NCBI RefSeq assembly: GCF_036884845.1
Contig: NZ_CP145732.1
Span: 5,208,001-5,272,000 of the forward strand
Source: Pseudomonas sp. MAG733B
GTDB lineage: Bacteria; Pseudomonadota; Gammaproteobacteria; Pseudomonadales; Pseudomonadaceae
Direction: 5' to 3'
Length of the DNA stretch: 64,000 bases
Numbering within the stretch: position 1 is the stretch's first letter; the number at the start of each line of letters is the position of its first letter. The notes under the pieces are model-generated. The model saw only the letters and a list, made by a program, of their open reading frames with translations. It made no database searches and was not told where the DNA came from. Below, one piece after another: positions 16,997-55,816 of the stretch. Position numbers and translations under genes: made by a program.

Positions 16997-18169
16997 ATGA
17001 AACGTCCCCGTCACACCCGACGCGCCCTGCTTGTCGCACTCTGCCTGATCCCCGTCATCGCCGTCGCTGCCTGGAAAATCATCCCGCCCGGCCGTGATCA
17101 GTTCGCAACCGTGCAAGTCACCCGCGCCGACATCGAAAGCAGTGTCACGGCATTGGGCACCCTGCAACCGCGTCGCTATGTCGACGTCGGCGCCCAGGCG
17201 TCCGGGCAAATCCACAAGATCCATGTGGAAGTCGGCGACGTGGTCAAGGAAGGCCAGTTGCTGGTGGAAATCGATCCGTCCACGCAACAGGCCAAACTCG
17301 ACGCCGGGCGTTTCTCCATCGAAAACCTCCAGGCGCAGCTGCAAGAGCAAAAGGCACTGCATGAACTGGCCCGGCAGAAATTCCAGCGTCAACAGAACCT
17401 CAAGGCCGGCGGCGCCACCCGAGAAGAGGACGTGCAAACCGCCCAGGCCGAATTGCGCGCCACCCAGGCGCGGATCGACATGTTCCAGGCACAGATTCGC
17501 CAGGCTCAGGCCAGCCTGCGCAGCGATCAGGCCGAACTCGGTTACACACGCATTTACGCGCCGATGTCCGGCACCGTGGTCGCACTCGATGCCCGTGAGG
17601 GCCAAACGCTCAACGCCCAGCAGCAGACACCACTGATTCTGCGCATCGCCAAACTGTCGCCGATGACCGTCTGGGCGGAAGTCTCGGAAGCCGACATCGG
17701 CCACGTCAAACCCGGCATGACCGCCTGGTTCACCACCCTCAGCGGCGGCACCCGACGCTGGAAAAGCACCGTGCGGCAGATTCTGCCCGTGCCGCCAAAA
17801 CCTCTGGACCAGACCAGCCAGGGCGGCGGCAGCCCCGCCAGTTCGAGCAAAAGCGGCAGCGCTCGCGTGGTGCTGTACACCGTGTTGCTCGACGTCGACA
17901 ACGCCGACAACGCGCTGATGGCGGAAATGACCACCCAGGTATTTTTCGTCGCCGATCAGGCGCAGAACGTACTGACCGCGCCGATTGCCGCCCTGCAGGC
18001 CGGAACACAAGCCGATACCCAGACCGCGCAAGTGGTCGCCAAGAATGGCAGCATCGAACAACGCAACGTGCGCACCGGCATCAGCGATCGCTTGCGGGTG
18101 CAGATCCTTGACGGCTTGCAGGAAGGCGATCACCTGTTGATCGGCCCGGCTGACGGGAGCGGCGGTTGA
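16997..18169 (+). CDS. pvdR: PvdR, periplasmic adaptor of the PvdRT-OpmQ efflux pump
   Basis: This 390-residue MacA-type membrane-fusion protein has an N-terminal anchor (residues 8-30), lipoyl/barrel segments ('GTLQPRRYVDVGAQASGQI', 'IYAPMSGTVVALDAREGQT') and a coiled-coil hairpin between them (about 95-180). It links the inner-membrane transporter PvdT to the outer-membrane channel OpmQ. In P. aeruginosa this pump secretes and recycles pyoverdine. Its stop codon is immediately followed by the pvdT ATG (TGA-ATG), so the genes form an operon, preceded by a perfect iron-starvation box. Confidence 0.93.
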   Translation: MKRPRHTRRALLVALCLIPVIAVAAWKIIPPGRDQFATVQVTRADIESSVTALGTLQPRRYVDVGAQASGQIHKIHVEVGDVVKEGQLLVEIDPSTQQAKLDAGRFSIENLQAQLQEQKALHELARQKFQRQQNLKAGGATREEDVQTAQAELRATQARIDMFQAQIRQAQASLRSDQAELGYTRIYAPMSGTVVALDAREGQTLNAQQQTPLILRIAKLSPMTVWAEVSEADIGHVKPGMTAWFTTLSGGTRRWKSTVRQILPVPPKPLDQTSQGGGSPASSSKSGSARVVLYTVLLDVDNADNALMAEMTTQVFFVADQAQNVLTAPIAALQAGTQADTQTAQVVAKNGSIEQRNVRTGISDRLRVQILDGLQEGDHLLIGPADGSGG

Positions 18170-20143: not shown

Positions 20144-20150
20144 TCGATTT

Positions 20151-23283: not shown

Positions 23284-23328
23284 TGCCCTACCTGTGTCAG
23301 CCATGAAGCAGGCTTTATCCAAGCTAGA

Positions 23329-24871: not shown

Positions 24872-24900
24872 TGCCACTTTTGCCAAGCGAAGCCGAAGCC

Positions 24901-26205
24901 ATGACCAACCGTCGTTCATTCCTCAAGCAGGCCGGTATTCTGGCCGCCGGCCTGCCGTTGACTGCCGGTGTGAGCCTGCCGGCGCTGGCCGGCAATCTGC
25001 AACAGCAGCCGCAACAGCAGCCGCAACCGCTGCCCAAAGGCAAATGGGCGCAATTGCGCCAGTTGTTCAATCAGGACCCGGACTACCTGCACTTCGCCAA
25101 CTTTCTGGTGACCTCGCACCCGACACCGGTGCGCAATGCGATTGACATGCACCGCGCCAACATCGACCGCAACCCCGGCCGCGCCATGGACTGGGACCTG
25201 CAGGAAACCGAGAAACGCGAGCACAACGTGCGGGTCTGGGCCGGCCGTTACCTCAACGCCAAGCCTGAGCAGGTCGCGCTGACAGGCAGCACCACCGAAG
25301 GTCTGGCAATGATTTACGGTGGCATTCATGTGCGCCCGGATCAGGAAATCCTGGTCAGCGAACACGAGCATTACTCCACCAACTACACCCTGGAATTCCG
25401 TCAGCAACGCCAGGGCACCAAGGTGCGCAAACTCAAGTTGTTCGAGAACAGCCACGATATTTCCGTGGACGAAGTGCTGGACTCGATCAGCAAAGGCATC
25501 CGCCCCGAAACCCGCGTGCTGGGCATGACCTGGGTGCAATCGGGCAGCGGCGTGAAACTGCCGATTGGTGAAATCGGCAAACTTGTCGAAGAGCTGAACC
25601 GTCAGCGCGACGAGAAGGATCGCATCCTGTACGTGGTCGACGGCGTGCACGGTTTTGGCGTGGAGAACCTCGATTTCCCCGACATGCACTGCGATTTCTT
25701 CATCGCCGGCACCCACAAATGGATGTTCGGTCCTCGCGGCACCGGGATCATTTGCGCCCGCTCCGCCGAGGTCAAGGACGTCACGCCGATCATTCCGACC
25801 TTCAGCGAATCCACCGACTTCGCGACCATCATGACCCCCGGCGGCTATCACAGTTTCGAGCATCGCTGGGCGGCAGACGAAGCGTTCAAGTTGCACCTCG
25901 ACCTGGGCAAGGCCGAGGTCCAGGCACGCATCCACGCACTCAACACCTACGCCAAGAATCGTCTGCTGGAGCAGCCACGGATCGAACTGGTCACGCCGCA
26001 AAGTCCGCAGCTGTCCGCCGGTTTCACCTTCTTCCGGATCAAGGATATGGACTGCGAAAAAATCGCCAGCGGGTTGATGCAGAACCGCGTGGTCTGTGAC
26101 TCGGTCGACCGCGACGTCGGCCCCGTGATCCGTATCGCCCCCGGCCTGCTCAACAGCGAAAACGAAATCGACCGCTTCATGGCCCTGCTCAACAAAACCG
26201 CCTGA
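24901..26205 (+). CDS. pvdN: PvdN, periplasmic PLP-dependent enzyme
   Basis: This 434-residue fold-type I PLP enzyme carries a Tat signal ('NRRSFLKQAGILAAG'), unusual for PLP enzymes. The Schiff-base Lys273 is in 'AGTHKWMFGPRGTG', with the cofactor-binding Asp in 'LYVVDGVHGFG'. PvdN converts the chromophore-bound glutamate side chain of pyoverdine into succinamide. I choose ATG 24901 because it gives a normal-length Tat n-region; an ATG at 24871, overlapping the pvdM stop, is also in frame. A REP-like element follows the gene and precedes pvdO. Confidence 0.93.
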   Translation: MTNRRSFLKQAGILAAGLPLTAGVSLPALAGNLQQQPQQQPQPLPKGKWAQLRQLFNQDPDYLHFANFLVTSHPTPVRNAIDMHRANIDRNPGRAMDWDLQETEKREHNVRVWAGRYLNAKPEQVALTGSTTEGLAMIYGGIHVRPDQEILVSEHEHYSTNYTLEFRQQRQGTKVRKLKLFENSHDISVDEVLDSISKGIRPETRVLGMTWVQSGSGVKLPIGEIGKLVEELNRQRDEKDRILYVVDGVHGFGVENLDFPDMHCDFFIAGTHKWMFGPRGTGIICARSAEVKDVTPIIPTFSESTDFATIMTPGGYHSFEHRWAADEAFKLHLDLGKAEVQARIHALNTYAKNRLLEQPRIELVTPQSPQLSAGFTFFRIKDMDCEKIASGLMQNRVVCDSVDRDVGPVIRIAPGLLNSENEIDRFMALLNKTA

Positions 26206-26356: not shown

Positions 26357-27232
26357 ATGAACAGTGATCTGCTGTCTCACTTCAAGGCCCTCGCCCTGAC
26401 CGCACTGATGGCCGGCCTGCTGCCGACTGCGGCTCAAGCCGCCACGCCCCCGCCACCGGGCAAGGTATTCAAAGACTGCAAGAACTGCCCGGAAATGGTG
26501 GTTCTGCCTGCCGGCACCTTCACCATGGGCACCCCTGACGACGAAGTCGGCCGCGAGCCCGATGAAGGGCCGATGCATGACGTGACGTTCGCCAAGCCGT
26601 TCGCCATGAGCCGCTTCCAGATCACCGCCGGTGAGTGGGACAGCTACGTGAAAGAGAGCGGCGCGACCATCGCCAACGGCGATACCCGCCCCGGTCGCGA
26701 ATGCATCGCCAGCAAGCCGCGTTATCCACAGAGCCCACGCCAGCCGGCGGTGTGCATGAACTTCGACGACGTTAAAAACTACGTTGCCTGGTTGTCGAAA
26801 AAAACCGGGCAGAAGTACAGCATGGTCAGCGAAGCCCAACGCGAATACGCCGCACGCGGCGGCACCAAGGGCCCGTTCCCCTTCCCGTTCGATGAAGGCA
26901 AGGAATACAGCATCGCCAAGCACGCCAACACCTATGGCCCGGCGGACGGCTACAGCTACAGCTCGCCGGTAGGCAGCTACCCGCCCAACGCCTTTGGCAT
27001 GTACGACATGCACGGCAACGTCTACGAATGGGTCGAAGACTGCGAACACCCGAACTACGTCGGCGCCCCCACCGACGGCAGCGCCTGGCTGGAACCCAAC
27101 TGCGAAGCCGTGCGCATCCGCGGCAACGACTGGGGTGAAGCGCCGGTGTTCTCCCGCTCCGGCAACCGCAACAGCCAGTACCCGCAGGAACGTGGGGACT
27201 GGATGGGCTTTCGGTTAGTGCGCGACCTCTAA
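26357..27232 (+). CDS. pvdO: PvdO, formylglycine-generating-enzyme-fold protein of pyoverdine maturation
   Basis: This 291-residue periplasmic protein has a Sec signal peptide (cleavage at 'AQA|ATP') and an FGE-sulfatase (SUMF1-like) domain: 'MVVLPAGTFTMGTPDDEVGR', 'VSEAQREYAARGGTKGPFPF', 'NAFGMYDMHGNVYEWVEDC', and the C-terminal 'RSGNRN...GFRLVRDL'. In P. fluorescens PvdO oxidises dihydropyoverdine to the mature chromophore. No iron-starvation box is visible in the 150 bases upstream, which hold a REP-like element, so it is probably read from the pvdM-pvdN promoter. In P. aeruginosa pvdF follows; here pvdE comes next. Confidence 0.92.
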   Translation: MNSDLLSHFKALALTALMAGLLPTAAQAATPPPPGKVFKDCKNCPEMVVLPAGTFTMGTPDDEVGREPDEGPMHDVTFAKPFAMSRFQITAGEWDSYVKESGATIANGDTRPGRECIASKPRYPQSPRQPAVCMNFDDVKNYVAWLSKKTGQKYSMVSEAQREYAARGGTKGPFPFPFDEGKEYSIAKHANTYGPADGYSYSSPVGSYPPNAFGMYDMHGNVYEWVEDCEHPNYVGAPTDGSAWLEPNCEAVRIRGNDWGEAPVFSRSGNRNSQYPQERGDWMGFRLVRDL

Positions 27233-27446: not shown

Positions 27447-29096
27447 ATGACCCAGCCCACCCGAGGCGCCATCGGCGAATTGTTCGCCCTGCTCAAACCC
27501 TTTCGACTGATCGTCGCCGCGTCCATTTTCCTGGGCATGGTCGGCGGCCTGAGCGTCACGGTGCTGCTGGCGACCATCAACAACGCTTTGCATTCGGACA
27601 GCGGTCTGACCCAGGGCGTGGTCGCGCTGTTCGCCGGCCTGTGCCTGCTGGCGCTGGCCAGTTCGATCTGCTCCGACATCGGCACCAACTACGTCGGCCA
27701 GCACATCATCGCCAAGCTGCGTAAACAGCTGGGGGAAAAAGTCCTGTCGGCGCCGATCGAACAGATCGAGCGCTACCGCAGCCATCGGCTGATCCCGGTG
27801 CTGACCCACGACGTCGACACCATCAGCGACTTCGCCTTCGCCTTCGCGCCGCTGGCGATTTCCGTCACCGTGACCCTGGGTTGCATGGGCTACCTGGCGA
27901 TTCTGTCGTGGCCGATGTTCCTGATCATGGTCGCCGCGATCCTGATCGGCACCGCGATCCAGGCCTACGCCCAGAGTAAGGGCGTGCAAGGTTTCATGGC
28001 CGCCCGTGACGCCGAAGACGAACTGCAAAAGCACTACAACGCAATCGCCGAAGGCGCCAAGGAACTGCGCATTCACCGCCCACGTCGCCAGCGCATGTTC
28101 ACCTCGGGCATCAAGGGCACTGCCGAATTCATCTGCAACACCCAGGTGCGCTCGATCAACACCTTCGTCATCGCCAAGACCTTCGGCTCGATGCTGTTCT
28201 TCGTGGTCATCGGCCTGGCGTTGGCCCTGCAAACCTTCTGGCCGAGCGCCGACAAAACCGTGATGAGCGGCTTCGTGCTGGTGCTGCTGTACATGAAAGG
28301 CCCGCTGGAACACTTGATCAGCACCCTGCCGATTGTCAGCCGCGCGCAGATCGCCTTCCGCCGCATCGCCGAATTGTCCGAGCAATTTTCCACCCCGGAA
28401 GCGCATCTGCTGCACAATGATCAGGGCGACGTCAAACCGGCTGTGCATGAACTGCAACTGGCCGACGTGCACTACGCCTTCCCGTCCGTCGACGGCGCCG
28501 CGCCGTTTCAATTGGGGCCGGTGAACCTGACGATCAAACAGGGCGATATCACTTTCATCGTCGGCGAGAACGGCTGCGGCAAGACCACGCTGATCAAGTT
28601 GCTGCTGGGCCTGTACACCCCGCAACAGGGGCAGATCCGTGTTAACGGCGAAGCCATCGACGCGCAGAACCGCGACGACTATCGCCAGTTGTTCACTACC
28701 ATCTTCGCCGACTACTACCTGTTCGACGACGTGGTCCAGGGCGATACGCACATCCCGGAAGACGCCAACAAATACCTGCAACGCCTGGAGATCGCACACA
28801 AGGTCAGCGTCAAGGACGGCAATTTCACCACCACCGACCTCTCCACCGGCCAGCGCAAACGCCTGGCGCTGGTCAACGCGTGGCTGGAAGAACGCCCGGT
28901 GCTGGTGTTCGACGAATGGGCCGCCGACCAGGACCCGACCTTCCGCCGGATTTTCTACACCGAGCTGCTGCCGGACCTGAAACGCCTGGGCAAGACCATC
29001 ATCGTGATCTCCCACGACGACCGTTACTTCGATGTCGCCGACCAACTGGTGCGCATGGAAAGCGGCCGGGTCGTCACCGAGCTGATGCCGGCCTGA
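27447..29096 (+). CDS. pvdE: PvdE, ABC exporter of the pyoverdine precursor
   Basis: This 549-residue half-transporter has six membrane helices in its first 310 residues and a C-terminal ATPase domain (Walker A 'GENGCGKTTLIK' near residue 372, signature 'LSTGQRKRLALV', Walker B 'VLVFDEWAADQDP'). It belongs to the cyclic-peptide-exporter (SyrD/PvdE) group and moves acylated ferribactin from cytoplasm to periplasm, where PvdP, PvdM, PvdN and PvdO act. Its own perfect iron-starvation box is just upstream. It stands directly before fpvA, as in P. aeruginosa. Confidence 0.95.
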   Translation: MTQPTRGAIGELFALLKPFRLIVAASIFLGMVGGLSVTVLLATINNALHSDSGLTQGVVALFAGLCLLALASSICSDIGTNYVGQHIIAKLRKQLGEKVLSAPIEQIERYRSHRLIPVLTHDVDTISDFAFAFAPLAISVTVTLGCMGYLAILSWPMFLIMVAAILIGTAIQAYAQSKGVQGFMAARDAEDELQKHYNAIAEGAKELRIHRPRRQRMFTSGIKGTAEFICNTQVRSINTFVIAKTFGSMLFFVVIGLALALQTFWPSADKTVMSGFVLVLLYMKGPLEHLISTLPIVSRAQIAFRRIAELSEQFSTPEAHLLHNDQGDVKPAVHELQLADVHYAFPSVDGAAPFQLGPVNLTIKQGDITFIVGENGCGKTTLIKLLLGLYTPQQGQIRVNGEAIDAQNRDDYRQLFTTIFADYYLFDDVVQGDTHIPEDANKYLQRLEIAHKVSVKDGNFTTTDLSTGQRKRLALVNAWLEERPVLVFDEWAADQDPTFRRIFYTELLPDLKRLGKTIIVISHDDRYFDVADQLVRMESGRVVTELMPA

Positions 29097-29213: not shown

Positions 29214-31694
29214 ATGCGATCTCTTCCACGCCGCACACCTCTCGCGCTGGCCGTACAGCGCCCGTCTCTGCATCGGACCCTGTTGACCAGCGTTCTGCTG
29301 ACCGCCACGTTGCTGGGGAGCAACATGGCCAACGCAGCGCCTGTAAAAGTGAGTATCTCCGTGCAGCCGCTGTCCAGCGCGCTGACCGAGCTGGGCATGC
29401 AGACCAATCTGCAAATCCTCTACAGCCCGGACCAGGTTGCCGGCATCAAGTCCCGCGCCGTGTCCGGCTCGCTGGAGCCGTCCGCGGCCCTGGCCGAGAT
29501 GCTCAAGGGCACCGGCATTTCGTTCCAGATCAACGGCAACAGCGTGACGCTGATTTCCGGCGGCTCTTCGAGCCTGCAACTGGGCGCGACCACCATTTCC
29601 GGCCAGGCGCTGGGCCTGACCACTGAAGACACCGGTTCCTACACCACCGGCGCCACCACCACCGCCACCAAGCTGCCGCTGACCATTCGCGAAACGCCGC
29701 AATCGGTGACCGTGGTTACGCGCCAGCAGATGGATGACCGTGGTGTCACCAGCGTCGCCGATGCCTTGCGCAATACTCCCGGCGTTACGACACAGAAGTA
29801 CGACAGTGACCGTACCGAGTTTTCCGCCCGAGGCTTTGCCATCACCAACTTTCAGTACGATGGCGTCAATATTCCCTACGACGGTGTCTACGGTGAAAAC
29901 CCGAACAACGGTGACGATGCAGCCAACCTCGACCACATTGAAGTCATCAAAGGCGCTACCGGCCTCATGACTGGCGCGGGTGACCCGTCCGCCACTGTCA
30001 ACCTCATCCGCAAAAAGCCGACCAAGGAATTCAAGGCTTCAGTCAGCGCCACTGCCGGTTCCTGGGACAACTACCGCACCGAAGGCGACATCTCCGGTTC
30101 GCTGACCGAGTCGGGCAACGTGCGCGGTCGCTTTGTCGGCGCCCTGCAGGACAAAGATTCGTACATCGACCACTACAGCCAGAAGAAAGACCTGTATTAC
30201 GGCGTGCTCGAAGCCGACCTGACTGACGATACCCTGCTGACCCTGGGTGTCGACAAGTCCAGCATCACTCCGCGCGGCAGTTCCTGGACCGGTAACACGG
30301 TTTACTTCGCCGACGGCGGCAAAACCGACTTCTCCCGCAGCTTCAATCCGGGCGCCGACTGGAGCCGTCGTGACTTCGACAGCACCACCTACTTCGCGTC
30401 CCTGGAGCAGGCGCTGGCCAACGACTGGAAACTCAAAGTCAGCCTCGACCAGAAAACTACCGATCACGATACTCAACTGGCCTCGGCCAGCGGTGGTTTC
30501 CCGGACCGCGACACCGGCGAAGGCATGTCCTTTTATCAGGGGCACTGGGAAGGCCATCGCGAGCAGTACACAGGCGACGTGAACGTCTCGGGCCCTTTCA
30601 CCCTGGGCGGTCGCCAGCATGAACTCGTGGCTGGTTTCATGGCGGCCCACTCCCGTCAGACTGGCGCAAACTTTGGTAGTGCCACTGACTCCGATGGACT
30701 GGTGCCGGGCAACATCTTTGACTGGGCAGGCCATATCGCGAAACCGGACTTCCCGAAAATCGGCAAGTACGAGCGCACCCAGAGCCAGAACGGCGCTTAC
30801 CTGGCCACCCGCCTGCGCCCGACCGATGATCTGTCGTTCATCCTTGGCGGCCGTGTCAGTACCTACAAGTACAACGAGGATTACAGCTACTACCCAGGCG
30901 CTGGCACCGACACACACGCCAGCTACAAGGAACATGGCGTCGTCACACCCTACGCCGGTGTAGTCTATGACCTGAACGATACCTATTCGGTCTACGCCAG
31001 CTACACCAGCATTTACCAGCCACAAATCAACAAGGACATCAATGGCAATACCCTTGAACCGGTTGAAGGTGACAGCTACGAAACCGGTCTGAAAGCGGCC
31101 TACTTCGAAGGCAAACTGAACGCCAGCCTGGCCTTCTTCCGCATCGAGCAGGACAACGTTGCAGAGTCGATCGGTACCAATGAGATCACCGGCGACGGCA
31201 TTTTCAAAGCCGTCGACGGTGCCACCACCAATGGCGTTGAACTGGAGCTGGCCGGCGAACTGGCACAGGACTGGAATGTTTCGGCCGGTTACACCTACGC
31301 CCGTACTCGCGATCAGGACCATCAACGTATCTACGGCTTCCCGCTGGCCACCAGCAAACCCGAACACGTAGTGCGTACGTTCACTACCTACCGCCTGCCC
31401 GGCGCACTGGACCAGGTCACCGTCGGTGGCGGTGTCAGCTGGCAGAGCGCGTTTTACGGTCAGAGCTTCAGTCCGAACGTGGGTAATGGCGAAGGCGGTA
31501 GCACCATGCTCAAGCAAGGCGGCTACACCCTCGTGGACCTGATGACCCGTTATCAGTACGACGAGCACCTGAGCTTCACCGCCAACGCCTACAACGTCTT
31601 CGACAAGAAGTACCTGACAGGCCTGGGCAACTTCGGCACCACCTTCTACGGCGAGCCGCGTAACTTCCAGGTAACGGCCAAGTACGACTTCTGA
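29214..31694 (+). CDS. fpvA: FpvA, ferripyoverdine TonB-dependent receptor with signalling domain
   Basis: This 826-residue outer-membrane transducer starts with a long signal peptide (to about 'MANAA|PVKV'). An N-terminal secretin/TonB (STN) signalling domain follows at about residues 44-115 ('VSISVQPLSSALTELGMQT...GTGISFQINGNSVTL'), then the plug ('TPQSVTVVTRQQMDDRGVTS', 'GVNIPYDGV', 'LDHIEVIKGATGLMTGAGDPS') and a 22-strand barrel ending 'FQVTAKYDF'. The STN domain relays ligand occupancy to an anti-sigma factor (FpvR) that controls FpvI and PvdS. The start has AGGAGCAC upstream. A good terminator follows. Receptor and NRPS lie close together, as usual for co-evolving pyoverdine types. Confidence 0.95.
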   Translation: MRSLPRRTPLALAVQRPSLHRTLLTSVLLTATLLGSNMANAAPVKVSISVQPLSSALTELGMQTNLQILYSPDQVAGIKSRAVSGSLEPSAALAEMLKGTGISFQINGNSVTLISGGSSSLQLGATTISGQALGLTTEDTGSYTTGATTTATKLPLTIRETPQSVTVVTRQQMDDRGVTSVADALRNTPGVTTQKYDSDRTEFSARGFAITNFQYDGVNIPYDGVYGENPNNGDDAANLDHIEVIKGATGLMTGAGDPSATVNLIRKKPTKEFKASVSATAGSWDNYRTEGDISGSLTESGNVRGRFVGALQDKDSYIDHYSQKKDLYYGVLEADLTDDTLLTLGVDKSSITPRGSSWTGNTVYFADGGKTDFSRSFNPGADWSRRDFDSTTYFASLEQALANDWKLKVSLDQKTTDHDTQLASASGGFPDRDTGEGMSFYQGHWEGHREQYTGDVNVSGPFTLGGRQHELVAGFMAAHSRQTGANFGSATDSDGLVPGNIFDWAGHIAKPDFPKIGKYERTQSQNGAYLATRLRPTDDLSFILGGRVSTYKYNEDYSYYPGAGTDTHASYKEHGVVTPYAGVVYDLNDTYSVYASYTSIYQPQINKDINGNTLEPVEGDSYETGLKAAYFEGKLNASLAFFRIEQDNVAESIGTNEITGDGIFKAVDGATTNGVELELAGELAQDWNVSAGYTYARTRDQDHQRIYGFPLATSKPEHVVRTFTTYRLPGALDQVTVGGGVSWQSAFYGQSFSPNVGNGEGGSTMLKQGGYTLVDLMTRYQYDEHLSFTANAYNVFDKKYLTGLGNFGTTFYGEPRNFQVTAKYDF

Positions 31695-31942: not shown

Positions 31943-32899
31943 TCAAACCTTTGACCGCACCCACCCCGCCACTTCCGCATGAATCGCTTCCACCTCACTC
32001 AACAACCCCGCCATGCGCAGAAAGTCATGAGTCATGCCCGGCTGTTCAAGCAAGGTCACGTCGTTGCCGGCAGCGCGCAAGCGCTCGGCATAGGCCAGGC
32101 CTTCGTCGTGCAGCGGATCGTGGCCGGCCAGGTACACCAAGGCGGGCGCCATACCCGACAGGTCTTCGGCCAGCAGCGGTGAGCAGCGCCAGTCCGCGAG
32201 GTCTGCCGGGGTGCGGCCGTAGTGGGCGTAGAACCAGTCCAGCGTCGGGGTTTCCAGCAAGTACCCTTCGGCAAAATCCCGGTGCGAGGCGCGATGGGTG
32301 GTGGCGTCGGTGACCGGGTACACCAGCAATTGCGCCTTGGGTTTCAACGCCAGTTCTTCGGGTTCACGCACGGCGATCAGTGACAGCACCGTCGCCAGGG
32401 TTGCACCAACGCTGTCACCGGCCAGCGCCACCCGTGACGCGTCCAGGCCATGGGCCGAGCCTTCGCGCACCAGCCAGTTGCCGGCATCGCAGGCGTCCTG
32501 CACCGGGGCCGGGAAACGCCATTCCGGCGCCAGGCGATAATCCACGGTCAACAGGGCAAAACCACCCTGCGCGGCCAAGCGTCGGCACAGCGCATCGTGG
32601 GAATCGAGGCTACCGACTACGTAGCCACCCCCGTGGAAATACAGGATCACCGGTTGCAAACCGTCGACCGTTTGCCCGTCGCGATACAGCCGCGCCGCCA
32701 GGCGGTGGCCGTCGCGCGCGGCGATGCTGAAGTTCTCGCAGACGATGGTGTCCAGCGGCACATCGAGGAACCCCGAGGACGCTTCGAAATCGATCCGCGC
32801 CTGTTGCGGGGTCTGCTCGTGCATTGCGCGACTTTTGCCGGTCAGGCGGCCGAACTCGGCGAGTTCGAGAAAAGCTTCAAGTTCTGGCAGTACGGCCAT
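31943..32899 (-). CDS. HSL-family alpha/beta-hydrolase (acetyl esterase-like) in the pvd locus
   Basis: This 318-residue esterase belongs to the hormone-sensitive-lipase family: oxyanion motif 'YFHGGGYVVGSLDSHD', nucleophile Ser in 'ALAGDSVGATLA', Asp in 'YLAGHDPLHDEG' and His in 'PGMTHDFLR'. There is no signal peptide, so it is cytoplasmic. The start has AAGGA 9 bases upstream. It lies between fpvA and the terminal NRPS gene, on the NRPS strand, where P. aeruginosa has no gene. It may be read through from the NRPS operon across a REP-like element. A role such as removing an acyl group from siderophore or hydroxyornithine intermediates is only inference. Confidence 0.85.
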   Translation of the reverse strand: MAVLPELEAFLELAEFGRLTGKSRAMHEQTPQQARIDFEASSGFLDVPLDTIVCENFSIAARDGHRLAARLYRDGQTVDGLQPVILYFHGGGYVVGSLDSHDALCRRLAAQGGFALLTVDYRLAPEWRFPAPVQDACDAGNWLVREGSAHGLDASRVALAGDSVGATLATVLSLIAVREPEELALKPKAQLLVYPVTDATTHRASHRDFAEGYLLETPTLDWFYAHYGRTPADLADWRCSPLLAEDLSGMAPALVYLAGHDPLHDEGLAYAERLRAAGNDVTLLEQPGMTHDFLRMAGLLSEVEAIHAEVAGWVRSKV

Positions 32900-33071: not shown

Positions 33072-36000
33072 TTATGCGATCGCCGTGCGGCGCTCCAACA
33101 CTTGCTCAAGCTCATCCAGCAACTCATCACCACGCAGCAACTCGTAATGCCCGCCCGCCAACAAGCGATCAACGCCGTGATGGCCGACCTGCGCCTCGAA
33201 CACCCGGCGTTCGTCGTCGCGCTCGGCCACCCACCAGCGATGGGCCGCCACTTGCACCTTCGGCAACTGCCGTTGGGCCAGGGCCAGTTGCTTGAGCGAT
33301 GAACCGGTGGCGAAGATCTGCGTCAGTTCGCTCGCACCCAGCGCGGCGTTTTCGTTGGAACCGTGCATCGCCGCTTCGATCACCGCTGCGGCACCTTCAC
33401 GCTCGTTCAGGCCAGCGGCTTTCAAGGCAATCAGCGTCTCTGCTTCTTCAGACGGTTGACCGAGGACGAACTTAAGGAAGTCGGCCAAATCTTCGCGCCA
33501 ATCCCCCGCTTCCGCCGTGCCCGCCACGTAGCTGTCGACCAGTCCGGCAAACGCAATCGTCTGACCTTGGGCTTCCAGTTCATAGGCAACCAGTTGCGTC
33601 AGCGCACCACCCAATGACCAGCCGAGCAGGTAATACGGACCTTCCGGCTGCTGCGCACGAATCCGCTGTGTATAGGCCCGAGCCATCGCCAGCAGCGATT
33701 CGTCCTGCCATTGCGGGTCGAGCAACATGCGGCATTGCAGGCCATACACCGTGCGCCGGCCTTCCAGACGCCGGGCCAGCGGTTCGTAGTCGAACACCGT
33801 GCCGAAACCGGCGTGCAGGCAGAACAGCGCCGGCACGTTGGCAACCCGGCCATTCAACGCCAGCAGCGGGTCCGGCGCTTTCGCAGGCTCGGCCACTTGA
33901 TAACCGCTGAGTTCGGCAATGCACGGTTTCTGCATCAGGTCGCGCAGCTTCAATTCGTAGCCCAGTTGCGGCTGACTGCGCACCCGCGAGATCACTTTGA
34001 GCACCTGCAACGAGTCGCCGCCGAGTTCGAAGAAGTTGTCGTCGATGCCCACTTGCGGCACGCCGAGCACCTCTTGCCAGATCGCGGTCAACGCCTGCTC
34101 CAGCGCGTTGCGCGGCGCACGATATCCACCGGTTGCCCATTCCGGCTCCGGCAGTGCGCGGCGGTCGAGCTTGCCGTTGGCCGACAGCGGGAAACGCTCC
34201 AGCACGAGGATTCGCGCCGGCACCATGTAGTCCGGCATTTGCGCTTGCAGCTCCGCCTTCAAACGACGATCCAGCCCGACCGTACCAGCAGCCACCACAT
34301 AACCGACCAACTGCTTGCCGGTCGGCGTGTCGTGCACCACCACGGCGGCATCCTGCACGCCTGCGCATTCACGCAAGCGCGCCTCGATTTCGCCCAGTTC
34401 GATACGGAAACCTCGGATCTTCACTTGCTGATCGAGGCGGCCGAGGTAGTCGATCAAGCCGCATTCGCGCTGGCGCACCAAGTCGCCGGTGCGGTACATG
34501 CGACCACCGGCCTCGAACGGATCGGGAATGAAGCGCTCGGCGCTCATGCCCGGACGCTGGTGATAACCCCGCGCCAGGCATTCACCGCCCAGGTACAGCT
34601 CACCGCTGACACCCACCGGCAGCGGATTGAGATCGGCATCGAGCACGTACAAACCACGCCCGGCCACGCCACGACCAATCGGCGCATAGGCCGCGTCGCA
34701 GGTTTCGCTGGCTTCTGCACGCCACAGCAGCGGCGTGACCACGGTTTCAGTCGGGCCATAACCGTTGACCAGACGCTGCGGACGCAAGGCACGCTTGACC
34801 TGTTCGAAACTGGCGTCCGGTACCGCATCACCGCCGAAGCAATACACCTCGACCGCCGGCGGATTGCCCAGGCGCTCGGCCACTTCGGCCATCTGTTGCA
34901 GGTAGGCCGGCGGGAAGCAGGCGACGGTGACGTGGTGCCGATGCAGCACTTCCAGGGTTTGTTCCGGGGTCCACAAGCTGTCCTCGCGGATCACCAGGCT
35001 GCCACCGGCCAGCATCACACTCAGCCAACGTTCCTGGGCGCCGTCGAAAGCGAACGACATGAAATGCAGTTCGCGGCTGCGCGGTGCCAGTTCATAGAGG
35101 TCGATGATGCCGCGGCAATGCCGGGCAATCGGTCCACGCGCCACGGCCACGCCCTTCGGTTGGCCGGTGGAGCCGGAGGTGTAGATCAGATACGCCAGAT
35201 GCCCCGGCAGTGGATCAACAACCGGGGATTCGCTGCTGCCAGCAACGCTCAACTGATCGAGCAACAAGCGCGGCGGGCTGTCGGCCAATGTCAGGCGTTC
35301 ACCCAGATCGCTGTCGCAGATCAACAGGCTCGCCGCCGAGTCGCTGAGCATGTAGGCCAATCGTTCGGCCGGGTACGCGAGGTCCAGCGGCAGATACGCC
35401 GCACCCGCCTTCAGCACCGCGAGGAACGCCACGATGGTGCGCTCGGAACGCGGCAACGCCACCGCCACCATGCTTTCGGCACCGATGCCGCGAGCGATCA
35501 ATTGCTGCGCCAGACCGTTGGCCTGTGCGTCGAGATCGGCATAGCTGACCTCACGATCCTCGCAGAACAGCGCGACTTTCTGCGGCTGGCTGCGGACATG
35601 TTGATTGAACGCCTGCAACAGATCAGCGTTGTCGGTAGACGCTTGCGGCAGGCACAAACGCACTTCGGGCAAGCCGATGTTGCCAAGCAAGCGATCGGCG
35701 TCTTCCGGCAAGGCGCGCAGCAACCCTTCCAGCTGAGCACGAATGCGCTCGACTTCCTGTTCGCTGAAGCGATCACGCAAGTACAGGTATTCGACTTCCA
35801 GGCCTTCGTCGTTGGCGCTGACCATCAAGTCCATCGGGAAGTTGGTGACGCCGCCGCTGCCGACTTCGGCGAAGCGCAGTTCGCCTTCCTCACCACCGCG
35901 CAAAGCACGGTCCACAGGATGGTTTTCAAACACGATGATGCTGTCGAACAGGCCTTGGCCACCCTGTCCGGCCCAGCGCTGGACGTCGGACAACGGCGTG

Positions 36001-39000
36001 TGTTCGTAGTCGCGCACGGCCAGGTTGTAATCCTGCAACTCACGCAGCCATTCGCCCAACGGCTGTTGCGGGTCGAGGGTCTGGATCACTGGCAAGGTGT
36101 TGATGAACAGGCCGAGCATTTCCTGGGCACCGGGCAAACCGGTCGGGCGCCCTGCCACCGTCGCGCCGAAGGCCACGCAGCGCTGCCCGCTATGGCGCTG
36201 CAACAGCAACAGCCAGGCACCTTGCACCAAGGTGTTGAGGGTCACGCGCTGACGCTTGGCGAAACTGTGCAACTTGCGTGTCGCCTCGGCATTGAGGTCA
36301 CTGTACATCACGCCGTGGCCTGAGCCTGCGGCACCCGAAGCCTTGGCCAGAATGGTCGGGGCTTCCAGCAAAGCCAGGCGCTCGCGCCAGAAACCTTCGG
36401 CCTGGGCATCGTCCTGACGTTGCAGCCAGGCGATGTAATCGGCGTAGCGACCGGTCAGCGCCGGCAGGCTGTCGTGGTGATACAGGCGCAGCATCTCGCC
36501 CAGCAGACGCGAAGCACTCCAACCGTCCAGCAGCAGGTGATGGTAGATCCAGATCATCTGGTAACGCTCTTCACCGAGGCGAACCAGAATGAAGCGCATC
36601 AGCGGCGGGCAGCTCAGGTCGAAGCCTTTCGCCTGCTCGGCAGCCGCCAGTTCGCTCAGCGCTTGCTCGGTGTCACTACGCTCGCGCCAGTCGAGCTCTT
36701 CGATCGGCAACTCGACTTCGGCAAACACCGCTTGCAACGGATCGGCCAGGCCGTCGCGCCAGCGGAACGCCGCACGCAGTACTTCATGCCGCTCGACCAA
36801 CGCCTGCCATGCCGCGCGGAAACGCGGCACCTGCAAGCCATCCACGGCCACGCTCAACTGGTTGACGTAGGGGTTGAGCTCCGGCGAATCGAGGCAATGG
36901 AACAACATGCCCTGCTGCATCGGCGACAGCGGATACAGGTCTTGCAGCCCCTCACGCGCCGTCACGTCGATGTGTGGAACCAGCGCGAAAGCCTCTACGG
37001 TCGGCGCGTCGACCAACGTAGTTTCACGACGGGTCGCCACGGCGGCGAGTGCACGGATGGTCTGCTGTTCGAACAATTGCTTCGGACTGAACACCAACCC
37101 GCGCTGCCCGGCACGGCTCACCGCTTGCAGCGAAATGATCGAGTCGCCACCCAGTTCGAAGAAGTTTTCGGTGACGCCCAGCGAATCCAGGCCGAGCAGG
37201 TCCTGCCAGATCTCCACCAACAGCGCCTCGGCGGGCGTCGTGGCGGCGACCTGATCGAGGCTCTGACGCGAGGCTTCCGGCGCTGGCAAACCCTGACGAT
37301 CGAGCTTGCCGTTCGGCGTCAGCGGCAGCGCGGCCAGGCACATCAGGTGTGCCGGCAACATGTGCGCGGGCAGACGGCTGCGCAAGTGTGCGGTTAGTGC
37401 GTCACGCAGGTCCTGCTCATCGGCGAGCGGATCGCGCGGCACCACGTAACCCACCAGTTGGCGACTCACTGGCCCTTCGCGGTCGATGACGAACGCTTCA
37501 CGCACGCCTTCGTGCTCCATCAGGCAAGCTTCGATTTCGCCGAGTTCGATACGGAAACCGCGAATCTTCACTTGCTGGTCAATGCGGCCGAGATATTCGA
37601 CCACGCCATCAGCGCGGAACCGTGCGAGGTCGCCGCTGCGGTACAGCCGCGCCCCCGGCACGAAAGGGTCCGGCACAAAACGTTCGGCAGTCAGGTCTGG
37701 ACGCTGGTGGTAACCCCGCGCCACGCCCTCGCCGCCGAGGTACAACTCGCCCGCCACGCCCACCGGCAACGGCTGCAAGCCACCGTCCAGGATGTACGCG
37801 CTGCGGTTGCCCACCGGGCGGCCAATCGGCATGAACGCCGAGTCGAATTCGGTATCCGGATACGCCAGCCAGATCAGCGGCGTGATCACCGTTTCGGTCG
37901 GGCCGTAGCCGTTGATCAGGCGCTTGGGTTGCAGCACTTGCTGAACTTCGTCGAACGCATGCTTGGCCATGCCTTCACCGCACGGGGTGTAGGAACGGAT
38001 CGGCAGATCGCGCCCCGCTTCGCCCATGTAGTCGGCGATCTGCGCCAGGTAACTCGGGGTGAAACAGGCGATGGTGATGCGGTGTTTTTCGATCTCGGCG
38101 CAGGTGCGCTCGACGCTCCACAACTCGTCATCACGCGGCATCACCGCCGAACCGAACACCAGCGGCGTCAGCCAGCGTTCGTGGGCGCCGTCGAAGCTGA
38201 TCGAGGCAAATTGCAGTTCGCGGTCGTCCGGGGTCATGCCGTACAACTCGCCGATCGACACGCAATGCATGGCCAGCGGACCGTGGGCCACGCTGACGCC
38301 TTTCGGTCGCCCGGTGGAGCCCGAGGTGTAGATCAGATAGGCGAGGTTTTCGCCGCAGGTCAGGTTGACCGGGTTGCTGTCCGCCATGGACTCCAACGGT
38401 TCACGGTCGATTTCCAGCACCGCCAGACCTTCCGGCAACGGCAGTTTTTCCCGCAGCCAGGATTGACTGATCAGCAGCGAAATCCCGCTGTCGTCCATCA
38501 GATAGCTCAGGCGTTCAGCCGGGTACGCCGGGTCGAGCGGCACGTAGGCGCCGCCCGCCTTGAGGATCGCCAGCAATCCGACGATCATTTCCGGCGAACG
38601 CTGCATCGCCAGGCCCACCCGCACTTCAGGGCCGATACCGCGCCCGCGCAAGTGGTGGGCCAGGCGGTTGGAGCGGCGGTTGAGTTCGTCGAAGCTCAGT
38701 TCCACATCATTGAAGATCAGCGCCGTGGCGTCCGGTCGGGCAACGGCCTGCGCCTCGATCAATTGGTGCACGCATAGCGGGTTTTCCGCGACGGTGAACG
38801 GCGGGTTCCACGCCAGCAATTGCTGGGCGCGCTCCGGTGCCGTTAGCAGGGCCAGTTCGCTCAAAGCAGCCTGAGGTGCCGCGACCATCGCCGCCAGCAG
38901 CGCGGCCAGATGCTCGCTCATGCGCGCAATCGCCGTGCTGCTGAAATGGTTGCACTGGTAGCTCCAGTTCAGGCTCAGCTGACTTTCAGCGGTGGCCGCC

Positions 39001-42000
39001 AGGGTCAGCGGGAAGTTGGTGCGTTCGTGATTCTGCGGGATCGAGAAGCTCAATCCGGCCGGCGCACCCTGTTGCAGGGCTTCGGCCACCGGGAAGTTTT
39101 CGAACACCAGCAGGCTGTCGAACAGCGGCTCACCGGCACGCCCGGCCCAGCGCTGAATGTCCCCGAGGGCGGTGAATTCATGTTCGCGCAGTTCGAGGTT
39201 CTGCGCCTGCAAACGGCTCAGCCATTGCTCGACGCTTTCCACGGCGTCCGGGCTGCTGATCACCGGCAAGGTGTTGATGAACAGACCGAGCTGGCTTTCC
39301 GCACCCGGCAAATCCACCGGACGCCCGGCCACGGTGGCGCCGAACGCCACGCTGCGCTGGCCGCTGTAGCGTTGCAGCAGCAGCGCCCACGCGCCTTGCA
39401 CCAAGGTGTTGAGGGTGACTTTCTGCTGGCGGGCAAAGTCGCTGAAGCGTTTGCTGATGGCGACGTCGAACGTCTGGAGATGGTCGGAAAACTCCGCGTC
39501 CGACAGGTTTTTGCTGTCGCCATGGGCGAGGCTCTGAGCCAGCAGCGTCGGGTTGTCGAGGGTTGCCAGTTGCCCGCGCCAGAAAGCCTCGTCGGCCTCG
39601 GCATCCTGACGTTGCAGCCAGCCGATGTAGTCGGCGAAACGCCCGGTGGGCGCCTGCACTTCTTGCCCGGCATAACGCTGCAAGACTTCGCTCAGCAGCA
39701 GCGAGTTACTCCAGCCGTCGAGCAGCAGGTGATGGTGGGTGTAGATCAGTTGCTGACGCTCGTCGTCCAGGCGCACCAGCGTCAGACGCATCAGCGGCGC
39801 TTTGGTCGAGTCCAGTTGCAGGCGTTCGCTGTCGATCAGTTGCGCCAGCGCTTCGGCCTGATTGTCGCGACCGCGCCAGTCAAGGCAGGTCAGCGGCAAT
39901 TGCAGTTGACGATGCACCAGTTGCACCGGCGCTTCGAAACCTTGCGGGAAGTGGAAACTGCTGCGCAGGATCGCATGGCCGTCGAGCACCGCTTGCCACG
40001 CGCGGCCCAGACGTTCGGAATCGAGACCGCGAGCCTCGACGCTGAGTTGGTTTACATACGCGCCAGACGCCGATTCGTAGAGACTGTGGAACAGCAAACC
40101 GGCCTGCATCGGCGACAGCGGATACACATCTTCGATCTGCGCCGGCGGCACCGGCAGACCATCGAGTTGCGCCTGGCTCAGGCGCGCCAGCGGGAAGTCG
40201 GCCGGGGTCACGCCACCCGCACCGTCGCTCAGGCAATGGTCGATCAGCGCCAACAGTTCGGCGCGGAAATCGATCGCCAGGGCTTCAATCTCGCGCAGCT
40301 CGAAGCATTCGCGGCTGAAGGTCCAGTCGAGTTTCAGTTCACCGCCATAGACCTGGCCGTCCACCGACAGCCAGTTCGGCAGTGGCGAGTCGGCGGATTG
40401 CGCGGCGCCGCTGCATTCCCTGGCCGGGGTGAACAACGCGTCCTCGGCAAAGCTTTGGTCGAACTGGCCCAGGTAGTTGAAGGTCACCCGCGCCTGCGGC
40501 AACGCCGCCAATGCGGATTGCGCCGCAGCATCGCCCATGTAGCGCAGCAAGCCGAAGCCCAGGCCTTTGCCTGGGATGTCGCGCAGTTGCTGCTTGATTG
40601 TCTTGATCGAAGCGCCGAGGTTGGCGGTCGGTGTCAGGCGCACCGGGAACAGGCTGGAGAACCAGCCGACGGTGCGGGTCAGGTCGATGTCGTCAAACAG
40701 CTCTTCGCGGCCATGGCCTTCGAGCTGAATCAGTGCCGATGCTTCACCGGTCCAGCGGCTGAGTGCGCGGGCTAATGCGGTCAGCAGCAGATCGTTGACC
40801 TGAGTGCGGTAGATCGCCGGGGCCTGTTGCAGCAACTGGCGGGTCTGATCACGATCCAGGCCGATGCTCACGCCCTGGCGCAGATGCCCGGCCTGACTCG
40901 CTTGCGCGTTGGCCGCCGGCAGCAAATCGCTGGCTCCGGTCAACTGCGCTTGCCACCACTTCAGTTCGGCGGCGGCGGTTTCAGAGCGTGCGTAAGTATC
41001 GAGCTTGTCCGCCCAAGCCTGGAAAGCGCTGGTCTTCGGCGGCAGTTCTTCACCTTGATAAGCGGCCTGCAAATCTTCCAGCAACACCCGCCACGAAACA
41101 CCGTCCACCGCCAAGTGGTGGATCACCAGCAGCAAGCGTTGCGAGCCATCGGCCTGGGCGATCAGCGCCACGCGCAGCAGCGGTCCATCTTGCAGGCTGA
41201 AGCTGCGCTGGGCTTCGTCGCACACCGACTCCAGCGAGGCATCGCTGGCGACACGGGCGGTCCAGAGCATGTCAATGACGTCGGCGCTGTCGGCGCCGAC
41301 ATAACGCGCCGACCATTGGCCGTCGACCTGACTGAAGCGCAGACGCAGGGCATCGTGCTGCTTGAGCACACGTTGCAAGGCACCTTGCAGACGCGGCAGT
41401 TCAAGGGTTTCGCGCGGTGTCAGCAACACCGCCTGGTTCCAGTGTGCGCGTTGCGGGATCGGTTCTTCGAAGAACCAGCGCTGGATCGGCGTGAGTTTTT
41501 GCACGCCATCGACCGGCCCTTGTTGGGCCAGCGGCGCGGCCTGTTCCTTGACCACGGCAGCCAGGGCTTGCAGGGTTTGCTGCTGGAACAGGTCGCGCGG
41601 TTGCAGGCTCAGGCCGGCACGGCGGGCGCGACTGACCACTTGAATCGAGATGATCGAGTCGCCGCCCAGCTCAAAGAAATTGTCCTGACGCCCGACTTGC
41701 TCCACGCCCAACACGTCCTGCCAGATCTGCGCCAACACCTGCTCATGGCTGCTGCGCGGTGCTTCGAACGCACGCTGGCTGACCTGCGCGGTCGGCGCCG
41801 GCAGGCGTTTGCGGTCCAGTTTGCCGTTGGGACTCAGCGGCATCTGTTCGATCAGCACGGTCTGCGCCGGCACCATGTAATCCGGCAGGCTGCCGAGCAA
41901 ATGGCTTTTCAGGGTTTCGCGCCACGCGCCTTGCTGCTCGGCATCAGCACCGACCAAAGCACGGTCCTGCGGCACGATGTACGCCACCAGTTGCTTGCCG

Positions 42001-44833
42001 CTCGGGCCGTCTAGGGCCAGGACTACGGCTTCCTGCACGTCCGGATGTTCTTGCAGACGCGCTTCGATTTCCCCGAGCTCAATACGCAGGCCGCGAATCT
42101 TCACTTGGTGGTCGATGCGTCCGCAGTAATCGATAACGCCATCGGCGCGATACCGCGCCAGGTCGCCGGTGCGGTACAGGCGCTCGCCGCTGCCGAACGG
42201 ATCGACCACGAAACGCTCGGCAGTCAGCGCACCACGACGGTGATAACCGCGCGCCAGACCAACGCCGCCGAGGTACAACTCACCCACCGCGCCCAGCGGC
42301 AACGGTTGCAGTTCGCTGTCGAGAATGCAGGTGCGCAGATTGGCGATTGGTCGGCCGATCGGCACGCTGTCGCGACCCTCTTCGACGCAGGTCCAGTGGG
42401 TCACGTCGATGGCCGCTTCGGTCGGGCCATACAGGTTGTACAGGTTGGCTTGCGGCAGGCTGCGCAGGGTCTGGCGTTGCAGTTCCATCGGCAGCGCTTC
42501 GCCACTGCAAATGATCCGGGTCAGCGAGGTGCAAGCCAGCGCTTCGTCGGCACCGATGAACGCCGAGAGCATCGACGGCACGAAGTGCAGCGTGGTGATC
42601 GCTTGCTCAACGATCAGCGCGGCAAGGCGTTGTGGATCGCGATGCTCGCCCGGTGCGGCGATCACCAGCGTCGCGCCTTTCATCAGCGGCCAGAAAAACT
42701 CCCACACCGACACGTCGAAACTGAACGGCGTCTTTTGCAGCACGCGGTCTGACGGCAGCAGGTTGTAGGCTTCCTGCATCCACTCGATGCGGTTGTGCAG
42801 CGCCACATGGCGGTTGCCCGCGCCTTTTGGTTTACCGGTCGAACCGGAGGTGTAGATCATGTAGGCGAGGTTTTCTGCCACGGCGATGTTCGGCAGATCG
42901 CTGCCCGGCAGTTCGCTCAGCCAATCGGCATCGGCGTGCAGGCTCAAAGTGCGCACGTTGTCCGGCGTCGGCAGTTGCGCCAGCAAATGCGCTTGGGTCA
43001 GCAGCAGCGAAATGCCGCTGTCTTCGATCATGTAGCTCAAGCGATCCAGCGGGTATTCCGGGTCCAGCGGCACGTAGGCGCCACCGGCCTTGAGAATTGC
43101 CAGCAGGCCGACGACCATTTCGAACGAGCGGTCGCAGGCAATCCCGACGATCACTTCCGGGCCGACGCCCTGCGCACGCAAGTGATGGGCCAGACGATTG
43201 GCGCGCAGGTTCAGCTCGGCGTAGCTCAAGGACTGGCCCTGGAACACCAGCGCCGTCGCTTCAGGGTTTTCAATCACCCGCGCTTCGAAATGCCGCTGCA
43301 CGCAGACTTCACCCGGATATACCTGAGCGGTGTCATTGAGATCATCGAGGATGCGCAGGCGCTCGTCAGCGTCCAGCAGCGGCAATTCGGCCAGCGGGGT
43401 TTGCGGGTTGGCCAGCACCCCGGCGAGCAGGTTGCGCCAATGCCGGGCCAGCGTTTCGATGCGCTCAGCGTCGAACAGGTCGGTGGCGTAGGTGAGGCTG
43501 GCGAACAGTTTGTCGCCCTCTTCCTGGGTATCGAGTTGCAGGTCGAACTGGGTGGTCTGCGCCGTGGCGTTCAATGCCTCGACCCGCAGACCGGCCAGCA
43601 AACCGCTGACCGCTGCCGGCCGGGCTTGCTGGTGATTGAACATCACTTGGAACAGCGGGCTGTGGCTCAAGCTGCGCTCACCTTGCAGCGCCTGCACCAG
43701 ACGCTCGAACGGCAAGTCCTGATAATCCTGGGCATCCAGCGACGCGGTGCGGGTTTGCTCCAGTAACTGGCTGAACGGCAGGCGTCCGTCGAGTTCGGCG
43801 CGCATCACCTGGGTGTTGACGAAGAAGCCGATCAGGCCACGGGTTTCCGCGCGATTACGGTTGCCGATCGGCACGCCAATGCGCAAATCGGATTGACCGC
43901 TGTAGCGATAGAGCAAGGCATGGAAACTGGCGAGCAACAGCATGAACGGGGTCACGCCGCGTTGCTTGGCCAAGGTCATCAAACCGCTGGCCAGATCTGC
44001 GTCGAGGGCGAAATCCAGACGCGCACCGCGCTGGCTCGGCTGGGCCGGACGCGGACGATCCGTCGGCAATTCCAGCAGCGGCTGTTCGCTGCCGAGCTTC
44101 TCACGCCACCAGTTCAGTTGACGCTCCAGCTCTCCGGCGTCCATCCAGCGACGTTGCCACGCGGCGTAGTCCGAATACTGGATCGGCAGCGCTTGCAGTT
44201 CCGCGCCCTGCCCTTGGCAATGGCCGGCATACAGTCGGGAAAACTCTTCGATCAATACGCCCATCGACCAGCCATCGGTGACGATGTGGTGCAGGGTCAG
44301 CACCAGCACATGGTCCTCGGTGTCCAATTGCAACAGGCTGACGCGTAGCAGCGGGCCGTGCTGCAAATCGAATGGCCGGGCGATGTCCTGCTCGACCTTT
44401 TTCATTGCGCATTCGAAACGCTGCGCCGCAGGTTCTTCGCGCAAATCGTGCTGTTCGATGGACAGCGAAGTGAACGCCGCCAGCGTTTGCAGCACTTGGC
44501 CGTCGTCCTCGATAAAACGACTGCGCAGGCTCTGGTGCCGCTCCAGCAGCACATCAAAACTCTGTTGCAGGGCCGCGACATTCAGCGGTCCATGCAGACG
44601 CAGGGCGGCAGGAATGTTGTACGCCGAACTCTGTGGATCGAGCTGCCAGAGGAACCATTGGCGCTGCTGCGCGTAGGACAGTTCAAACGTCGCTTGCGGC
44701 TCGGCAGCGGCTGGAATCGGCAGTTGGCCAAAACTCACACCCTGCTCTTGCATCTTGGTCAAAAACTCGCGGCGCTTGTCGGCGGGCAGGCCGGCAAAGC
44801 GGGTGGCGATACGCATGGCGGTGGTGTGTTCCA

Positions 44834-44834
<1 letters not shown>
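33072..44834 (-). CDS. pvdD: Terminal pyoverdine NRPS, C-A-T-E-C-A-T-C-A-T-TE (PvdD-like)
   Basis: This 3920-residue synthetase completes the pyoverdine peptide. Module 1: C (HHIVTDG), A near residues 510-1010, T 'GGDSIIS' (about 1056), E with 'HHLAVDG' (about 1241); its A code DVWHISLIDK is serine-type, so D-Ser. Module 2: C starting 'DVYPLSPMQAG' (about 1575), A code D-G-E-C-T-C-G-I-T-K, T 'GGDSIIS' (about 2563), no E. Module 3: C 'DLYPLSPMQQG' (about 2635), A code D-G-E-C-C-G-G-V-T-K, T 'GGDSLQV' (about 3605). The TE has 'GWSLGGALTQ' (about 3740) and His in 'LAGGHYELL'. Codes were aligned by eye; modules 2 and 3 are probably hydroxyornithine types. Its ATG overlaps the upstream NRPS stop (TGATG). 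The symbol rests on synteny (TE-bearing, near fpvA). Confidence 0.93.

Positions 44835-55816
<10,982 letters not shown>

Follow-up and report, generated by a model that had tools for sequence, protein, structure and literature searches.

Two questions are raised by the pyoverdine locus of Pseudomonas sp. MAG733B: which peptide its nonribosomal peptide synthetases (NRPSs) assemble, and what part is played by the alpha/beta hydrolase gene that follows them. The window analysed here is a stretch of 64,000 nucleotides (positions 5208001-5272000 of a 6.65-Mb single-contig genome), in which a check of the open reading frames (ORFs) placed two NRPS genes on the minus strand, with six modules in all, spanning window positions 33072-55816 (Table 1; condensation, C; adenylation, A; thiolation, T; epimerization, E; thioesterase, TE). 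From the genes, their domain order, the A-domain codes, the positions of the E and TE domains and a siderophore-type acyltransferase gene, all of them observed in this genome, we infer the amino acids, the acetyl group and the cyclisation of the product, which is very probably the pyoverdine chromophore-D-Ala-Lys-Thr-D-Ser-AcOHOrn-cOHOrn (OHOrn, N5-hydroxyornithine; AcOHOrn, N5-acetyl-N5-hydroxyornithine; cOHOrn, cyclic OHOrn), with its peptide half built by these two NRPSs. The predicted compound is not new, its sequence having already been measured for the isolate S3b16.

The A-domain codes, extracted by alignment to the A domain of GrsA (PDB 1AMU), read in order DLWNNALTYK, DGEDHGTVVK and DFWNIGMVHK in the first NRPS (3660 amino acids, aa) and DVWHISLIDK, DGECTCGITK and DGECCGGVTK in the second (3920 aa). 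The four codes aligned by hand in the first-pass annotation of this DNA (for Ala, Lys, Thr and Ser) were recovered letter by letter, and the last two, described there as beginning DGEC, could be completed. By conventional code readings, DLWNNALTYK is taken to specify Ala, DVWHISLIDK Ser and DFWNIGMVHK Thr. A published survey includes DFWNIGMVHK under its Thr heading, treats DGEDHGTVVK among the Lys codes and counts DGECTGGITK and DGEACGGVTK among the modified-ornithine codes (PMC12283262). The codes of modules 5 and 6 are each one residue away from these listed modified-ornithine codes, which supports the earlier placing of hydroxyornithine derivatives in the last two positions. DGEACGGVTK could be calibrated as a last-module code on the line of P. 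aeruginosa PA7, where codes for Thr and Ser and then DGEACGGVTK precede the TE, matching the Gly-Thr-Ser-cOHOrn end listed for the type II peptide of this species (PMC9774294). Four further lines (L069, L075, L079 and L080) read Thr(E)-DLWNNALTYK-DGEACGGVTK, which fits a listed pyoverdine ending in aThr-Ala-cOHOrn (aThr, allo-Thr; PMC9925543) at the level of the codes.

Pfam matches gave each NRPS four condensation-superfamily, three AMP-binding and three PP-binding stretches and confined the TE to the 3920-aa protein, in agreement with the first-pass annotation, in which the TE-bearing NRPS stood second in the line. The two genes overlap by one base (TGATG, in which one A closes the TGA stop of the first and opens the ATG of the second), so that the gene order, and the residue order read from it, are better supported than that annotation had assumed. 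PvdL builds the acyl-Glu-Tyr-Dab starter of pyoverdines (Dab, 2,4-diaminobutyrate). Its gene, which had been placed outside the pair, was located at about 5336890-5350056 of the contig, some 65 kb past the right end of the window; it encodes a 4388-aa NRPS with a partial A-type match followed by C-A, C-A-E and C-A, the last module having no E and the code DIWELTADDK, presumably for Dab. Within the window, the pair is accompanied by genes for the periplasmic maturation proteins PvdN, PvdO and PvdP, a PvdE-type exporter, an FpvA-type receptor, a PvdRT-OpmQ-like efflux set and a PvdA candidate (Table 1).

The domain labels E, LCL and DCL were assigned from position together with sequence motifs. 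Among the eight condensation-superfamily domains of the two proteins, two form a separate pair with 57% identity to each other and 21-25% to the other six, and both contain what we take to be the E-type motif; they stand after modules 1 and 4, exactly where E domains had been proposed. The C domains following both E domains are DCL-like and those following Dab, Lys and Thr are LCL-like, the pattern that L-Dab, D-Ala, L-Lys, L-Thr and D-Ser would give; specifically, the LCL-like first C of the 3660-aa NRPS fits an L-Dab donor, the last module of PvdL being without E. The last C domain (module 6, window 35670-36947, minus strand) is DCL-like despite the lack of an E in module 5, with 48% identity to the two DCL-like domains and 26-28% to the LCL-like ones. 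A D residue at position 5 or a dual C/E domain was considered on this account and dropped, as the pattern is general: all 75 last C domains behind an E-less module in TE-ended lines (74 named loci and the window) were DCL-like, which is therefore not evidence for D-AcOHOrn. A single clade of last C domains, with a support of 1.0 at first, was likewise given up when the support went to 0.0 once E-ended lines and internal OHOrn modules were added. The D/L assignment predicted from the sequence is limited to residues 1 and 4.

With regard to the acyl group on hydroxyornithine, the genome contains a single PF13523 match, a 337-aa protein encoded beside pvdL, for which the best PDB match was the N5-hydroxyornithine transacylase SidF. 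We call this protein PvdYII-like from its family and place, the place being comparable because in P. putida GB-1 the PvdYII gene (PputGB1_3811; PMC3596284) lies near the chromophore-synthesis gene PputGB1_3809 (PMC4019867). Four Formyl_trans_N genes were present in the genome (Fmt, PurN and two PurU), among which no PvdF-like gene was found, as judged without a PvdF query sequence. Given one PvdYII-like acyltransferase and no PvdF-like gene found, residue 5 is probably AcOHOrn rather than formyl-OHOrn.

The composition Ala-Lys-Thr-Ser-(acyl)OHOrn-cOHOrn, which the first-pass annotation had placed among described pyoverdines, proved to be real: Ala-Lys-Thr-Ser-AcOHOrn-cOHOrn is listed from tandem mass spectrometry for isolate S3b16 (PMC8888394, PMC9925543), with an [M+H]+ of 1047.47 for the Suc-Py form (PMC9925543), a residue sequence identical to the one predicted here including the acetyl and the cyclic hydroxyornithine. 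PMC8888394 names four other samples as new chains and S3b16 is not among them, so that its chain was already known in 2022. Both halves of the line recur in relatives, which argues that the six-module line is not due to chance. The DVWHISLIDK/DGECTCGITK/DGECCGGVTK-TE half was found in 35 of 80 named loci (the best 80 of 370 relatives), and the layout of the first NRPS (three codes and an E after module 1), read in seven genomes and not in each named locus, was identical in all seven near-relative genomes (last module at least 90% identical). Among the named loci returned, from which very near records may be omitted, the end of the second NRPS had its best match (96%) in P. azerbaijanoccidentalis SWRI74; this strain (L008), Irchel 3A7 (L032), Irchel s3h14 (L034) and P. 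koreensis DSM 16610 (L027) share the signature of the second half and have the hydrolase downstream as here. The P. lundensis, P. fragi and P. helleri type lines (L038-L043, L045 and L046) also have the Ser/OHOrn/OHOrn-TE half, with an adjoining hydrolase 63-67% identical, but differ in the code of module 5 (DGECTGGITK). In two genomes related to the P. lundensis type lines (L133 and L134), the first-half codes were DVWHVSLIDK, DIWELTADDK and DFWNIGMVHK, which we take to be Ser, Dab and Thr as against Ala-Lys-Thr here, and Ser-Dab-Thr-Ser-AcOHOrn-cOHOrn is predicted for these P. lundensis-like genomes. The PA7 line (L058) resembles the window in its OHOrn-type last module with a TE, a PvdYII-like gene (70% identical) and a hydrolase (51% identical), but differs in its other residues and in its last code.

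Several points weigh against the predicted structure. The code of module 2, DGEDHGTVVK, is one residue away from an Orn code (PMC12283262); acetyl-, formyl- and cyclic OHOrn are indistinguishable by A-domain code for a published predictor (PMC11444679), and DGEACGGVTK was found in internal modules too. Type II P. aeruginosa carries PvdYII (PMC6206403, PMC3596284) and has its internal residue listed as formyl-OHOrn (PMC9774294), so that PvdYII alone does not prove acetyl, and PvdF was judged as described above. The DCL-like C of module 6 has no E upstream, and residue 5 may be L or D. S3b16 is matched here by its measured product, reported without D/L assignment in the text available, and a gene cluster shared with it is presumed. 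The same assembly line could differ in residue detail, with Orn at position 2 or with residue 5 bearing formyl or 3-hydroxybutyryl in place of acetyl; the closeness of the Lys and Orn codes, the limits of published predictors and the type II case would allow this, but we regard it as very unlikely, as the sequence with Lys and acetyl is that of a measured natural pyoverdine, a PvdYII-like gene is present and no PvdF-like gene was found among the Formyl_trans_N genes.

For the favoured product, PvdL would supply the acyl-Glu-Tyr-Dab starter to the 3660-aa NRPS, which would add D-Ala, Lys and Thr; a PvdA-type enzyme would hydroxylate ornithine and the PvdYII-like enzyme would acetylate hydroxyornithine; the 3920-aa NRPS would then add D-Ser, AcOHOrn and the last OHOrn, the latter becoming cyclic upon release. 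Such a prediction gives the strain a known pyoverdine type, of use in siderotyping and in forecasting who shares or pirates its iron. The hydrolase matters more: if it is needed for the cOHOrn end, a biosynthetic step would become testable by way of one gene.

The hydrolase gene lies directly downstream of the gene for the 3920-aa NRPS and on the same strand. Its product shows the features of the HSL family, namely the HGGG oxyanion motif, a GDSxG nucleophile motif and the Asp and His of the triad, and S163, D261, H291 and H89-G92 were at least 98% conserved in 97 sequences and invariant in 31. A structure model was confident (mean pLDDT 88), the closest solved structures were HSL-kind esterases/lipases, and no signal peptide was evident by eye. 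Of the 80 named loci, 77 have the hydrolase behind the terminal NRPS (L053 only partly); among the three loci without an adjoining copy, the genome of L047 has the hydrolase on another contig, the assembly of L049 has neither a hydrolase nor a PvdYII-like match, and Azomonas L051 has a PvdYII-like gene and no hydrolase match.

The distribution was extended to a sample of 119 genomes of the genus Pseudomonas, with the hydrolase accepted at E<=1e-60 (weakest accepted, 2.5e-80). The hydrolase was present in 58 of these genomes, a PvdYII-like gene in 78 and pvdP in 88, and every one of the 58 hydrolase-positive genomes carries a PvdYII-like gene. The same 58 genomes were those assigned a last module with the code DGE[AC]CGG[VI]TK, 39 being TE-ended and 19 E-ended without a TE; for the 88 pvdP-positive genomes the table of hydrolase against this last module read 55/0/0/33, the hydrolase being missing from 16 genomes with pvdP and PvdYII and from 17 with pvdP and without PvdYII. 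In 54 of the 58 genomes the hydrolase gene adjoins an NRPS gene; in G002 the two are divided by contig ends, going by coordinates, and in G003, G057 and G072 the hydrolase lies about 3 kb from pvdP, away from the NRPS. The next-best match in the genome studied here was 36% identical (1.2e-45), the second match of another genome reached 4.8e-58, and in a tree the hydrolase homologues separated from four paralogues of the own genome with weak support (0.63).

These counts depend on how the last modules were assigned. For 49 of the 58 hydrolase-positive genomes (the own genome plus 20 and 28 others) the last-module code comes from direct reading, and the remaining nine were assigned by 71-93% identity over an A-T-TE query. 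The grouping was made with knowledge of the hydrolase, whose presence was the reason for reading the 19 E-ended lines and G051. In the 61 hydrolase-negative genomes, regions were read for 18 of the 20 with PvdYII (all except G028 and G054), several ending before the last module, and for the 41 without PvdYII the lack of a DGE[AC]CGG[VI]TK last module was inferred from at most seven scored candidates per genome. A C6-A6 query, intended as a hydrolase-independent way of classing genomes, did not tell last OHOrn modules from internal ones. The hydrolase is missing from lines that combine internal hydroxyornithine modules and PvdYII with another last code (L116, L121, L124 and, as read, L120), which indicates that it is not tied to acetyl-hydroxyornithine in itself.

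It is possible, and we hold it tentatively at rather less than an even chance, that the hydrolase takes part in cOHOrn formation or release: PvdYII would acetylate, the hydrolase would deacetylate or directly cyclise the last residue, and ring closure would release the peptide. This is a hypothesis drawn from association. A hydrolase able to deacetylate or to cyclise would square the PvdYII gene of P. putida GB-1 (PMC3596284) with the measured pyoverdine of this strain, which has cOHOrn and no acetyl (PMC4019867), and would thus account both for an acetylase gene where the pyoverdine carries no acetyl and for release from E-ended lines without a TE. In one form, which we consider unlikely, the hydrolase would strip the acetyl added by PvdYII, and the freed N-hydroxyamine of the last residue would attack the thioester, close the six-membered ring and leave the NRPS. 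The conserved catalytic residues, the restriction of the hydrolase to genomes with PvdYII and the assigned last module, its absence from the other pvdP-positive genomes and a review stating that cyclisation is believed to require acetylation (PMC6206403) are all consistent with this. Against any such role stand the relatedness of the genomes, which inflates an association, the unblinded grouping and the reading of just 18 regions from the 61 hydrolase-negative genomes. In addition, Azomonas (L051/G119) has DGECCGGVTK-TE and a PvdYII-like gene with no hydrolase match, five hydrolase-negative genomes end in DGECTGG[VI]TK with TE or E-TE (L108, L109, L113, L119 and L125), a sixth (L112) ends in DGEGSGGVTK-TE, all six with ornithine-type codes, and the survey assigns six-ring closure to the TE domain (PMC12283262). 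The last codes of these six genomes resemble that of module 5 here, and our guess would be that the final residue of their peptides could be left uncyclised, with its acyl group in place.

The E-ended lines bear on a second role, that of a stand-alone release or cyclising enzyme (a trans thioesterase) acting on the NRPS-bound chain. The 19 lines L088-L106 end C-A(DGE[AC]CGGVTK)-T-E, stopping 3-10 residues past the E domain with no TE in the terminal protein and with the hydrolase still adjoining, which suggests a D-configured last residue and an unfamiliar release step. We nevertheless regard a trans thioesterase as quite unlikely, as 39 lines have a TE domain and the hydrolase together and the nearest solved structures are HSL esterases/lipases and not NRPS thioesterases.

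That the hydrolase is instead a passenger or an indirect partner, for example in siderophore turnover after uptake, comes close to an even chance. HSL esterases accept a wide range of substrates, the receptor gene is a neighbour of the hydrolase gene as well, and Azomonas does without the hydrolase; on the other side, the hydrolase is missing from all 33 pvdP-positive genomes without the assigned last module, and in three of the 58 genomes it lies away from the NRPS yet still near pvdP. Should the hydrolase be needed for the cOHOrn end, it would be a one-gene marker telling terminal cOHOrn from internal acetyl-hydroxyornithine, a distinction that a published A-domain predictor describes as beyond it (PMC11444679). 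In a search of the literature touching the hydrolase or cyclisation, no paper was found that assigns this gene, which does not show its absence from print.

Table 1. Features of the pyoverdine locus, in window coordinates.
Feature	Position	Strand	Basis
First peptide NRPS, 3660 aa: C-A(Ala)-T-E / C-A(Lys)-T / C-A(Thr)-T	44834..55816	-	ORF, Pfam, GrsA-aligned codes
Module 1: LCL-like C, A code DLWNNALTYK (Ala), T	52562..55681 (boundaries approximate)	-	Codes, C-domain comparison
E domain of module 1 (D-Ala predicted)	51248..52513	-	C-superfamily comparison, position
Module 2: DCL-like C, A code DGEDHGTVVK (Lys; alternatively Orn), T	48137..51160	-	Codes, C-domain comparison
Module 3: LCL-like C, A code DFWNIGMVHK (Thr), T	44897..48025	-	Codes, C-domain comparison
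Second peptide NRPS, 3920 aa: C-A(Ser)-T-E / C-A(OHOrn type)-T / C-A(OHOrn type)-T-TE	33072..44834	-	ORF, Pfam, codes
Module 4: LCL-like C, A code DVWHISLIDK (Ser), T	41553..44693	-	Codes, C-domain comparison
E domain of module 4 (D-Ser predicted)	40227..41510	-	C-superfamily comparison, position
Module 5: DCL-like C, A code DGECTCGITK (AcOHOrn predicted), T, without E	37065..40136	-	Codes, C-domain comparison
Module 6: DCL-like C, A code DGECCGGVTK (last OHOrn; cOHOrn predicted in product), T	33915..36947	-	Codes, C-domain comparison
TE domain with GWSLGG	33072..33830	-	Pfam, sequence
HSL-family alpha/beta hydrolase, 318 aa, Ser163, Asp261, His291, HGGG 89-92	31943..32899	-	PF07859, 1.2e-69
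TonB-dependent siderophore receptor (FpvA-type by place)	29214..31694	+	Family match
PvdE-type cyclic-peptide ABC exporter	27447..29096	+	Family match
PvdO	26357..27232	+	Above NCBIfam cut-off
PvdN	24871..26205	+	Above NCBIfam cut-off
PvdP tyrosinase	21664..23322	-	Above NCBIfam cut-off
PvdRT-OpmQ-like efflux set	16997-21545		Domain-level family matches
Ornithine/lysine N-hydroxylase family protein (PvdA candidate)	14755..16092	-	Pfam PF13434; the one NCBIfam match listed falls short of the cut-off

A third NRPS, encoded outside the window on the minus strand at contig positions 4980797-4989988 (L001:2798-11989), was considered as an additional part of the pyoverdine line and set aside, having no starting C domain and a TE of its own. 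It comprises three modules, begins with an A domain and has codes reading Thr, Thr and DSALIAEVWK.

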